This document shows positions 24,153-47,257 of a stretch of DNA of 64,000 nt, one piece after another. Source of the DNA: Veillonella parvula (lineage in GTDB: Bacteria; Bacillota; Negativicutes; Veillonellales; Veillonellaceae). Numbering within the stretch: the first letter of the stretch is position 1; each line of letters starts with the position of its first letter. The notes beneath the pieces were generated by a model. It searched no databases, was not told the DNA's origin, and worked only from the letters and a program-made list of their open reading frames with translations. A program made the translations under genes and the position numbers. Location of the stretch: NCBI RefSeq assembly GCF_036456085.1, contig NZ_CP138632.1, forward strand, positions 1,469,001 through 1,533,000. The letters are read 5' to 3'.

Positions 24153-25871
24153 TTAGTACTTCCTTTCTTGTGGTTCGTATTTAGTGAACACTACGTCGCG
24201 TTCTGTTAATTCGTATTGACCGTCAGCACCTAATTTGATCAAAGAATGTTTTAAGTATTTTTCATCATTACGTTTAGGATGGTCTTCACGAATATGAGCA
24301 CCACGAGATTCACGGCGGTGTAAAGCGCCCATAGCAATAGCTTTTGCTACTGTTAACATGGAGCCGATTTCACAATAGTTTACGAATGCCATATTGTAAG
24401 TACGTTCAGGGTCACCTACATAGCAAGTTTTATAATCTTCAATCAATTGTTCGATTTCTTTTAAGGCTTCAGTAATACCTTCTTCATTACGGAAGATACC
24501 TACTTTATTCCACATTGCATCAGCCAATGCATCGCGGATTTCTACAACCGGACGACCGCCTTCACGGGATGTTACTTCTGTGAAACGAGCTTCCCAAGCT
24601 TTTGCAGCTGCAGCAAGTTCCGCATCTACGTTAGGTTGTTCATGTGTTTCAGCATAATCAGCTGCGCCAGCACCGGATACCTTACCGAATACTACACCGT
24701 CTGCCAAGGAGTTACCACCCAAGCGGTTCGCACCGTGGATGGAGATACAAGATGCTTCGCCAGAAGCGAACAAACCAGGCAATTCACATGCACAAGTTTT
24801 GTAATCCACTACGTCGATACCGCCCATTGTATAGTGACATGTAGGACGAATAGGTACCGGTTGAGTCAATGGATCGCAATGTTCGAAGCACATAGCTAAG
24901 TCGCGGATACCATGAAGTTTTTCGATAATAACTTCAGGGCCCAAGTGACGAAGGTCAGCTACTACATATGCGTTAAGGCCAGAACCGAAACCACGACCTG
25001 CAGCGATTTCATCTTCGATCGCTTTCGCTACAACGTCACGAGATGCCAATTCCATTTTGTTAGGCGCATATTTTTTCATGAAACGTTCGCCTTCAGCGTT
25101 AAGAAGGTAACCACCTTCACCACGAACCGCTTCGGACATCAAGATACCAGTACGACCAAGACCAGTTGGATGGAATTGGATCATTTCCATATCTTTCAAG
25201 CCGTTACCAGCGCGGAATGCTGCTGCCATACCATCGCCTGTGGAAAGGAATGGGTTTGTAGTACGAGTCCAGAAGATACGGCCTGCACCACCAGTAGACA
25301 AGATAATAGCTTTCGCTTTAATTTGTTCTACGCGACCTTCTTTCATGTTCCAAACTACAGCGCCACCAACGTGACCTTCTGCAGATTTAACAAGATCTAA
25401 AAGATACCATTCTTGTAAGAAGTGTACGCCTTCTTTCAAGCATTGTTCGTAAGTTGTGTGCAAAATAACGTGACCAGTTTTATCCGCAGAGTAGCAAGTA
25501 CGTGGATAGGATTGACCACCGAAGTTACGTTGCGCAATTTTATTCTCTTCAGTACGGGAGAATGGAGCACCCATGTGGTCCATTTCAAGTACGCCTTCTG
25601 GACAACGAGAGCAGAAGAATTCGATTGCATCTTGGTCGCCAAGATAGTCAGAACCTTTTACAGTATCGAAAGTATGAGTTTCAACTGTATCTTCAGCTGC
25701 AACGTTGTTCAAACATGCATTTACACCGCCTTGCGCCATTGCTGTTGCAGAGCGAGTTGGGAAAATTTTAGTAATAAGAGCTACTTTTAAGCCTTTGCGA
25801 CGACCTACTTCAAGAGCCGCACGCATGCCGGCGCCACCGCTACCTACTACTAGAACATCAAACTGTTCCAT
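24153..25871 (-). CDS. sdhA: Fumarate reductase/succinate dehydrogenase flavoprotein subunit
   Basis: A 572-residue flavoprotein. The dinucleotide fold VVGSGGAGMRAALEV is at residues 8-22. Active-site elements HPTGLGRTGILMSEAVRGEG and CHYTMGGI are intact. The residue that normally carries covalently bound FAD is a histidine in FPTRSHT; here it reads FPTRSATAMAQGG with Ala at position 42, so FAD should be held non-covalently. There is no Tat signal, so the enzyme faces the cytoplasm. The ATG at 25871 has a GAGGAGG site. First gene of sdhABE, with an 885-bp upstream region that contains a Fur-type box 500 bp away. Confidence 0.95.
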   Translation of the reverse strand: MEQFDVLVVGSGGAGMRAALEVGRRKGLKVALITKIFPTRSATAMAQGGVNACLNNVAAEDTVETHTFDTVKGSDYLGDQDAIEFFCSRCPEGVLEMDHMGAPFSRTEENKIAQRNFGGQSYPRTCYSADKTGHVILHTTYEQCLKEGVHFLQEWYLLDLVKSAEGHVGGAVVWNMKEGRVEQIKAKAIILSTGGAGRIFWTRTTNPFLSTGDGMAAAFRAGNGLKDMEMIQFHPTGLGRTGILMSEAVRGEGGYLLNAEGERFMKKYAPNKMELASRDVVAKAIEDEIAAGRGFGSGLNAYVVADLRHLGPEVIIEKLHGIRDLAMCFEHCDPLTQPVPIRPTCHYTMGGIDVVDYKTCACELPGLFASGEASCISIHGANRLGGNSLADGVVFGKVSGAGAADYAETHEQPNVDAELAAAAKAWEARFTEVTSREGGRPVVEIRDALADAMWNKVGIFRNEEGITEALKEIEQLIEDYKTCYVGDPERTYNMAFVNYCEIGSMLTVAKAIAMGALHRRESRGAHIREDHPKRNDEKYLKHSLIKLGADGQYELTERDVVFTKYEPQERKY

Positions 25872-26756
25872 AATGACCTCCTCATAACTACCTATTAATA
25901 AGAAACCTGTTAGACTATCTCATTTCAAAAACTTATAAAAATTTTTGATAACCTAATCATTTTTCTTTCAAGAAAAACCCCATACTTATGCGATTTTTCT
26001 TATTTCTTTACCTATAATTATAGAGAGCATTTCAGGTCATGTCTAAACCCTATTATGCATAATTAATTTTGATTAATCTAATTGATAATTTATTTCACTT
26101 AGCATTTTTAAGGTAAAAAGAGGAGTCAAAAAATTACCTATATGAATAATTTTTACAAGAAGTTAAGGATTTTACGAAAGTAGTTCGGTTCCGAAATTTT
26201 TCTATGTTTTTATTTCCTTTGGTATCTATAGAATTCGCATAAACACTAGCTTTTTAATTATTGCTAACCATTCCTAATAATTAATATCCATTAAATTCCT
26301 ACTAAATCTACCTCGAATTTAATCATCGAAAATTATCGTATTTCTCCGTTCATAACAAGCATTTATTTCTGTGATAATAATTATCATAAGTTTTTTTAGT
26401 GATTTATCGCACATCATCTAAAATCGATAAAATCACCCTCATCTATGCGCATACGGCAATCTTCGATATAGTTAGATTTTATTCATTAGCAGAATTCATT
26501 AAGTTTCAGTCTTTCACCATTTTTAAGGCTTTCAAAAATGAAGAAAAGTCTTGTAAACTCGCATGTACATTCATCTTTTGCTCATTACTATTGTATAAGG
26601 TATGATAATAGATAAATAAGTTATATAATATTATATATATAGTCACCTTATATGGTGTTGTGGCTTTCAAAAAAAGAAAGTTTATATATATATAATGACT
26701 ATAATTAATGTAGTTGGAGAGCTATATTTTTAAATCATACATAAGGAGAACAGAGA
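25872..26756. other. 885-bp AT-rich intergenic region between sdhA and the response regulator
   Basis: The two flanking genes diverge. The DNA is strongly AT-rich. It contains an exact Fur-type box at 26372-26386, an imperfect stem-loop at 26399-26436, and a short plus-strand frame (26399-26605) with no ribosome site or recognisable product. Room exists for one or more small RNAs. Confidence 0.6.
26372..26386. promoter_or_regulatory. Fur-type operator
   Basis: TGATAATAATTATCA is a perfect 7-1-7 palindrome and matches the Bacillus Fur consensus TGATAATnATTATCA at every defined position. It lies 501 bp upstream of sdhA and 371 bp upstream of the response regulator gene. Confidence 0.7.
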
Positions 26757-27431
26757 ATGAAAATTTTACTTGTAGAAGACGAAGAAATGCTGAATGGTAT
26801 CACGGCTAAATATTTACGTGCAGAAAATATGACAGTTGATACATGCTTCAATGGGCAACAAGCGATCGATTACGTTAACACATCTAGCTATGACGTTATC
26901 GTAATGGATATTATGATGCCAATCCTCGATGGTATCAGTGCTCTTGCACAAATGCGTAACGACGGTAATACAACACCTGTATTGCTTTTAACAGCAAAGG
27001 ATTCCTTACAAGATAAAGTTACAGGCCTTAACACTGGTGCAGATGATTATCTTGTAAAGCCTTTCGATCTTGAAGAGTTAACCGCTCGTATTTATGCATT
27101 GGCTCGTCGTAATGCGCGTCATGCACAAAACGATATCCATGTAGGTCCACTTACCATCAATGTTCCTCAACGTACTGTTAAACGCGACGGCGAAACAATT
27201 ACATTGACTGCAAAAGAATTCGACCTATTATTCTATTTAGCAAGTAACGAAAATATCGTATTATCTCGTCAACAAATCCTTGACCATGTTTGGGAATACG
27301 ATTATGAAAGCTACTCTAACCTTATCGACGTATACATTAAAGATTTGCGCAAGAAAATTGATACTGATGAGAATGTAAAACTCATTCAAACGGTTCGTGG
27401 AGTAGGGTATGTCCTCAAAACAGAAAACTAA
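26757..27431 (+). CDS. OmpR/PhoB-family response regulator
   Basis: A 224-residue regulator: a receiver domain (residues 1-115) with acidic pocket E7/D8, phosphoacceptor D51 in VMDIMMP, and the conserved Lys in YLVKPF; then a winged-helix DNA-binding domain (about 128-222) with LTAKEFDLLFYLA and RGVGYVL. The ATG at 26757 follows AAGGAG. It overlaps the histidine kinase gene by 23 bp and is co-expressed. The overall type is like CutR/ArlR of Firmicutes; the signal is unknown. The promoter region upstream carries a TATATATA-rich stretch. Confidence 0.95.
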   Translation: MKILLVEDEEMLNGITAKYLRAENMTVDTCFNGQQAIDYVNTSSYDVIVMDIMMPILDGISALAQMRNDGNTTPVLLLTAKDSLQDKVTGLNTGADDYLVKPFDLEELTARIYALARRNARHAQNDIHVGPLTINVPQRTVKRDGETITLTAKEFDLLFYLASNENIVLSRQQILDHVWEYDYESYSNLIDVYIKDLRKKIDTDENVKLIQTVRGVGYVLKTEN

Positions 27432-46422: not shown

Positions 46423-47052
46423 TTAATCATGATGTGGTTTCAATGCTTTTTCGTAGTTTTCAGAAACTTTATCCCAGTTAATAACTCGGAAGAATTCCTT
46501 GATATAGTCTGGGCGACGGTTTTGGTAGTGCAAATAGTATGCATGTTCCCAAACGTCCAAACATAAAATTGCTTTTTTACCTTCCAATAGAGGGTTGTCT
46601 TGGTTCGCAGAGGATGTCACTTCTAGCTTGCCATCTTTGTTAACTACAAGCCAAGCCCAACCGGAGCCAAAACGTGTAGCTGCCGCAGTAGAGAAGCTTT
46701 CAACAAAAGCATCGTATCCACCAAGTTCAGCATCGATAGCCTCTTTCAAAGAACCTTGCAATTTAGAAGTATCTGGTTTTGTCATGATGTCCCAGAACAT
46801 GGTATGGTTCTTGTGACCGCCACCATTGTTGATAACTGCTTGACGGATATCTTCAGGCACATTAGCAATATCGCCGAGAATACAGTCTACACAGCCATAC
46901 GGAAGATCAGGATATTTCGCGATAGCAGCGTTCAAATTATTAACATAGGCTTGATGATGCTTGTCATGATGCAATTTCATTGTTTCAGCATCGATAACAG
47001 GTTCAAGGTAATCATACGCATACGGTAATGGTGCGAGTTCGAAAGGTTTCAT
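46423..47052 (-). CDS. sodA: Superoxide dismutase (Fe/Mn)
   Basis: A 209-residue enzyme that dismutates superoxide. Metal ligands are visible as the first His in [11 protein letters not shown], the second in NHTMFWDIM, and [11 protein letters not shown] carrying the Asp and the last His. GGHKNHT and GSGWAWLV are family-typical. The ATG at 47052 has a GGAGGAC site; the longer frame to 47085 lacks one. Upstream lie an inverted repeat (47195-47222) and a Fur/PerR-like box (47243-47257), which suggests metal or peroxide control. Confidence 0.95.
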
Positions 47053-47194
47053 AGTAGTCCTCCTTAAATTTAGGGCATAGAACAATGCTAACTATTTCGT
47101 ATCATCGTTCTTGTGAAAGCGATTCGATGCACCTGCATCGGTAATATAGAATCAATCTACTAGCATAGCATATATACTTCAAGAAGAGACTGAT

Positions 47195-47242: not shown

Positions 47243-47257
47243 TGATATGAATTATCA
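47243..47257. promoter_or_regulatory. Fur/PerR-like box upstream of sodA
   Basis: TGATATGAATTATCA matches TGATAATnATTATCA at 12 of 14 defined positions. It lies 190 bp upstream of sodA. Confidence 0.45.

Follow-up and report, generated by a model that had tools for sequence, protein, structure and literature searches.

A conserved Fur-type palindrome and a phased partner element between sdhA and a response regulator gene in Veillonellaceae

In the 885-bp gap that separates sdhA (minus strand) from the gene of an OmpR-family response regulator (plus strand), a 15-bp Fur-type palindrome (hereafter designated box 2) is conserved in place and stands in helical phase with a second conserved element (element E), a looser palindrome (box 1) lies at a fixed distance from the sdhA promoter, and the box 2–E unit co-occurs with the sdhA–regulator gene order. 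From comparison of these sequences, we read box 2 as a DNA operator of a Fur-family protein (Fur being the likeliest candidate), coupled to E, and box 1 as the operator that serves sdhA, and assign to this reading a probability of roughly 0.55. Iron would probably act on the DNA of the gap rather than through a small RNA. The features concerned are as follows, with positions referring to the window (the whole 64,000-nucleotide stretch of DNA analysed) and strands given for genes, promoters, and promoter regions.

24153–25871, minus strand: sdhA/frdA flavoprotein gene (TIGR01812, 749 bits, cut-off 567)
26017–26045, minus strand: conserved sdhA promoter TAGACA-17-TATAAT (promoter scan, 11 of 12 consensus positions)
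26083–26097: box 1, a looser Fur-type palindrome, TGATAATTTATTTCA in the window, 37 bp upstream of the sdhA −35
26186–26202: conserved block, the inverted repeat TTCGGTTCCGAA, conserved through most of the genus (alignment)
26290–26322: conserved block C, TTAAATTCCTACTAAA, 3′ half inverted (alignment)
26372–26386: box 2, exact 7-1-7 Fur-type palindrome TGATAATAATTATCA (sequence, genome counts, conservation)
26387–26397: T-rich conserved tract directly 3′ of box 2, part of the block 26370–26397
26399–26416 (approximate limits): CRP/Rex-like imperfect palindrome (read by eye)
26441–26475: element E, ATCTATGCGCATACGGCAATCTTCGATATAGTTAG, conserved block phase-locked to box 2
26571–26616, plus strand: conserved region 5′ of the response regulator gene, with TTCAT-type repeats and a promoter-like TATGAT, presumably the regulator promoter (alignment)
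26757–27431, plus strand: OmpR-family response regulator gene (best model RppA at 215 bits, short of the cut-off of 250)

Conservation of box 2 in the gap

All 14 non-central positions of box 2 are palindromic, and as a 15-bp inverted repeat it matches the 7-1-7 Fur box consensus (TGATAATNATTATCA), in agreement with the sequence-only reading that had singled out this 15-mer. The distances given in that reading are likewise correct, box 2 starting 501 bp from the sdhA ATG (25871) and ending 371 bp before the regulator ATG (26757). An exact match was found once in the window (0.01 expected from shuffles) and once in the whole 2.21-Mb genome. The wider class of Fur boxes was not enriched in the genome, where sites with two mismatches or fewer numbered 41 vs 56 for the reversed control pattern, and with one mismatch or fewer to box 2 the reversed control was often equal or higher; thus, the evidence for box 2 lies in its conservation in place and not in the number of matches. 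Ten of 14 Veillonella genomes carry the exact box 2 once each, always in the sdhA gap and about 500 bp from sdhA, and in the other four the same gap carries TGATAACTATTATCA, TGATAAATATTATCA, or TGAAAATCATTATCA (one mismatch each) or TGATAATGTTTCTCA (two mismatches). Loss of the box from close relatives that keep the gap did not occur, all 14 Veillonella genomes retaining it, and box 2 is also conserved in place in 8/8 genomes of two other genera. A chance AT-rich palindrome without function might be suggested by the low G+C content of the gap (about 26%) and by near-matches that are no commoner than the reversed control, but the conservation in place in all these genomes, amid flanks that are far less alike, makes this explanation scarcely credible. 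On this comparative evidence, box 2 is kept by selection, and the earlier proposal of a genuine Fur-type box with a likely iron link to sdh is supported.

Alignment of 11 gaps resolved 12 conserved blocks with diverged sequence between them, including the sdhA leader and promoter, the region ending in box 1, two blocks that contain inverted repeats (26186–26202 and 26290–26308), and element E. The gap of V. parvula SKV38 (G007) is nearly identical to that of the window, and a plasmid search gave no match. Block C was considered as an RNA hairpin and rejected, because, by eye, substitutions in its 3′ half are not matched by any in the invariant 5′ half; with a stem that shows no covariation, it is read as a putative DNA site. 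Box 2 itself was rejected as a terminator hairpin, its stem being A+T-rich and having no direct junction with the T run. The imperfect palindrome beside box 2 becomes TTGTGA-N6-TCACAA in V. denticariosi and G009 and is confined to part of the genus. As a Rex/CRP site it was likewise rejected, fewer than 16 of 18 positions fitting in the window, where the loose Rex/CRP pattern gave five matches vs 3.7 expected, 26399–26416 not being among them. The TTCAT-type direct repeats 5′ of the response regulator gene are retained after relocation (L231, L233–L236, L244), and PhoB-type autoregulation through these repeats is likely.

Box 1 and the sdhA promoter

Box 1 reads TGATA-N5-TATCA in most species and is, together with box 2, among the four matches in the window to the loose pattern TGAWA-N5-TWTCA (0.74 expected). 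In 16 of 24 sequences, 68–69 bp separate its centre from the sdhA −10, and the promoter is TAGACA or TGGACA with TATAAT (among the 24, the rows of the window and SKV38 are near-identical); the distance from box 1 to the sdhA ATG varies from 168 to 293. In the g2 lineage (six sequences), box 1 lies 82–83 bp from the −10, with a different −35 and out of phase with 68 bp, and before second sdhA copies the corresponding distance is 72 bp in V. magna and 71 bp in V. montpellierensis. The earlier statement that no gene is attached is therefore incomplete, box 1 (26083–26097) being fixed to the sdhA promoter.

In the review PMC3788343, the boxes of Fur-activated genes are placed about 90–130 bp upstream of the transcription start and those of repressed genes overlap the promoter. 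Box 1 and sdhA show the arrangement of the former class, a box upstream at a fixed distance from the core promoter, box 1 lying some 80 bp 5′ of the presumed sdhA start. The geometry is close to that of the published Fur-activated promoters, and by analogy Fur would presumably activate sdhA. Direct Fur-activated promoters given in that review are those of Neisseria norB, aniA, and nuoA, V. cholerae ompT, and H. pylori oorB. Like these, box 1 stands upstream of the presumed start of a gene of energy metabolism, the published range of distances reaching 130 bp; unlike these, the gap holds a second, exact box coupled to element E by helical phase, and activation here is presumptive.

Two sdhA copies are present in V. 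montpellierensis (L050, L059), one of them adjoining the regulator, and likewise in V. magna (L054, L055). The gene that sdhA faces in the g2 lineage (L047, L049, L051, L052, L056, L057) resembles one for an anaerobic ribonucleotide reductase, and by eye an FNR-like site, TTGATTTTTATCAC, is conserved between the two genes.

The box 2–element E unit and its possible transcripts

The spacer from box 2 to the TATGC of element E is either 46–47 or 56–57 bp in all 21 distinct sequences. The longer spacer is found in Veillonella sensu stricto, V. agrestimuris, and G020, and the shorter one in G001, V. montpellierensis, and the other genomes of the third genus. For 20 of the distinct sequences, the box was sought at spacers of about 31–65 bp upstream of E; for G016, which represents a fourth genus, the gap was scanned blind from end to end, without that limit, and TGATATATAATTTCA was located 47 bp from a TATGC. 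An illustrative P value for the spacer phase is 3.5e-5, taking eight clades as independent and spacers as uniform over 44–59 bp, and the independent 10-bp changes of the spacer probably number two or three. Since a step of about 10 bp corresponds to one helical turn, the spacing points to partners that bind DNA on the same side of the helix. Simple looping between boxes 1 and 2 was rejected, because their spacing (288–289 in most Veillonella and 144–311 elsewhere) has no common helical phase across lineages.

A profile of the box 2–E unit (R1) matched 21 of the 28 genomes of the family once each, in the sdhA–regulator gap and with E from 8e-25 to 3e-11; at other sites, no score was better than E 0.0018. 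All 22 genomes with adjoining sdhA and regulator genes carry the unit (21 by profile and G016 by pattern), adjacency having been established from sdhA seen in 20 regulator loci, from coordinates for G004, and from the first sdhA codons at a contig end for G016. In the six genomes in which the two genes lie apart, the unit was undetected (best profile E 0.04–0.19); there, the TTCAT-type promoter region still precedes the regulator, unaccompanied by the unit, and box 1 still precedes sdhA. Thus, the unit belongs to the sdhA–regulator junction and not to the regulator alone.

This distribution bears on the idea that box 2 and E form a distal promoter, activated by a Fur-family protein, that gives the response regulator–kinase operon an iron input. 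The presence of the unit wherever the regulator adjoins sdhA, and in none of the six other genomes, agrees with it, as does a −10-like TATAGT or TATACT inside E in 12 of 20 aligned sequences (absent in the other eight), with the box centre 77–88 bp upstream, a distance that agrees in phase with the 68 bp found for box 1 and sdhA. Against it, the relocated g2 regulator came without the unit and retains the TTCAT-type region only, the unit of V. montpellierensis lies 983 bp from the regulator, and no convincing −35 for E was found in the aligned sequences. We regard such a promoter as rather unlikely, and control of the regulator alone was rejected because the unit did not accompany the regulator when it moved.

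The sequence-only reading had raised, as an attractive idea, a Fur-controlled small RNA transcribed from the gap, comparable to RyhB or FsrA, in which box 2 would repress a promoter and the RNA would lower sdh mRNA when iron is short. Precedents are B. subtilis FsrA, which represses succinate dehydrogenase (PMC9993123), and E. coli RyhB, which targets sdhCDAB (PMC3788343). In the window, moreover, a promoter-like plus-strand sequence, TTCATA-18-GATAAT, was recovered by promoter scan with its −10 inside box 2, and the distance of 983 bp in V. montpellierensis could mean that the unit is an independent transcription unit. The scan of the region, however, returned five such sites vs 6.6 expected. 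When relatives were compared for box and promoter together, the box proved to be conserved but the overlapping promoter did not, its −35 not being conserved among species by eye. No terminator-like site was found in the gap of the window; such sites were present in the gaps of 5 of 16 species, the best ones at different places. From box 2 to E, no conserved RNA fold was obtained (−0.81 kcal/mol, five pairs, all inside the box palindrome), and the one covarying pair inside that palindrome is equally expected of a DNA palindrome; z-scores from an RNAalifold window scan were discarded because the column shuffling destroyed all structure. The gap gave no Rfam match. The pairing with sdhA that the earlier reading envisaged was not borne out within the stretch covered, the sdhA leader from −60 to +30, duplex energies lying between −1.9 and +1.4 SD of shuffles (10 sequences, both directions). 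The 10-bp steps of the spacer, finally, follow a rule of the DNA helix and not one of RNA. Collectively, the small RNA is not supported and is judged quite improbable; the promoter-like match overlapping box 2 leaves it some small probability, and an RNA that is unstructured or ends by Rho-dependent termination is conceivable.

Candidate binders and the proposed iron control

The genome encodes three Fur-family proteins, one nearest to Fur, one nearest to PerR, and one that by eye lies beside genes of a zinc-type ABC transporter. As none of them reaches its NCBIfam cut-off, we infer the binder of the boxes rather than name it by family assignment. Similar boxes accompany other genes. Upstream of feoAB, TGATAATWATTGTTG, with three mismatches to the full consensus, overlaps the −35 in 12 of 14 genomes. 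The superoxide dismutase gene (46423–47085, minus strand) has TGATAATTCATATCA at 47243–47257 on the minus strand, 11 bp after the −10 of a promoter read by eye as TTGACG-17-TACAAT; a box just downstream of the −10 has the geometry of repression. Among 12 stretches, a superoxide dismutase match was found in nine and one partial gene was dropped, leaving nine usable sequences with the window included, of which eight fit the loose pattern at this box and the ninth has one mismatch. Rubrerythrin has TGATAAATATTATCA upstream in 7 of 14 genomes, these seven having been examined; its box centre lies 66 bp from the −10 of a promoter read by eye as TTGCAT-16-TACAAT, which is below the scan threshold and makes the geometry tentative. 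Most of the exbB-type iron-uptake operons examined are without a comparable conserved box, so that the Fur motif of the genus is not firmly established.

As a separate observation, a region of about 340 bp 5′ of rubrerythrin is nearly invariant in seven Veillonella genomes and ends with TGATAAATATTATCA (L004:1160–1515, genome 2057401–2057756). This region may hold a long structured leader; a search of Rfam gave no match to a rubrerythrin leader.

Superoxide dismutase and rubrerythrin are typical PerR targets. The binder could accordingly be PerR or another Fur-family paralogue, in which case the gap would sense peroxide or manganese instead of iron. A PerR-like protein is encoded in the genome, similar boxes stand before both of these genes, and PerR would use a similar box. 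Nevertheless, feoAB carries the half site TGATAAT, and the 15-mer has TGATAAT, which we take to be the Fur form, and not TTATAAT, presumably the form of B. subtilis PerR. We consider a binder other than Fur rather unlikely.

In the preferred reading, that of operators acting on DNA, the gap would hold two operators of a Fur-family protein. With iron present, Fur would bind box 1 and sdhABE would be on; when iron is scarce, Fur would leave box 1 and the iron-rich enzyme would be spared. Box 2 would be the operator half of a second unit, consisting of box 2 and E on one face of the helix, in which Fur on box 2 would touch a protein on E, which may be another regulator or else RNA polymerase on a weak promoter directed rightward. 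Putative in this scheme are the identity of Fur as the bound protein, the positive sign of its effect, the partner on E, and the transcript that would be served.

The presumed outcome resembles that of RyhB and FsrA as described in PMC9993123 and PMC3788343, sdh being lowered when iron is short, but no RNA gene was found here and control is apparently exerted on the DNA. Direct activation by the Fur protein, as proposed here, has a counterpart in the same phylum in B. subtilis pfeT (PMC9993123); this likeness is drawn without regard to site geometry, and pfeT is the gene of an efflux pump and not of an iron-using enzyme. For feoAB and sod, which are presumably repressed, the box lies on the promoter, as in the scheme of PMC3788343.

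With boxes in common, feoAB, sod, rbr, and sdhA make up a candidate regulon, of which no description appeared among the papers listed in literature searches. The phasing of box 2 and E provides a sharp prediction at the level of DNA. As a tentative extension, box 2 and E may form a family-wide, single-copy iron-responsive unit in which the Fur-family protein, bound at a distance of one or two helical turns from its partner, acts as the switch of either an unannotated promoter (for a regulator leader or an RNA) or a co-regulator. The best-known agents of iron sparing at succinate dehydrogenase are small RNAs (RyhB and FsrA), whereas the anatomy described here points to direct operator control in the Veillonellaceae, abundant anaerobes of the mouth and gut; together with box 1, the unit may provide this family with a direct, RNA-free iron sparing of fumarate/succinate respiration.
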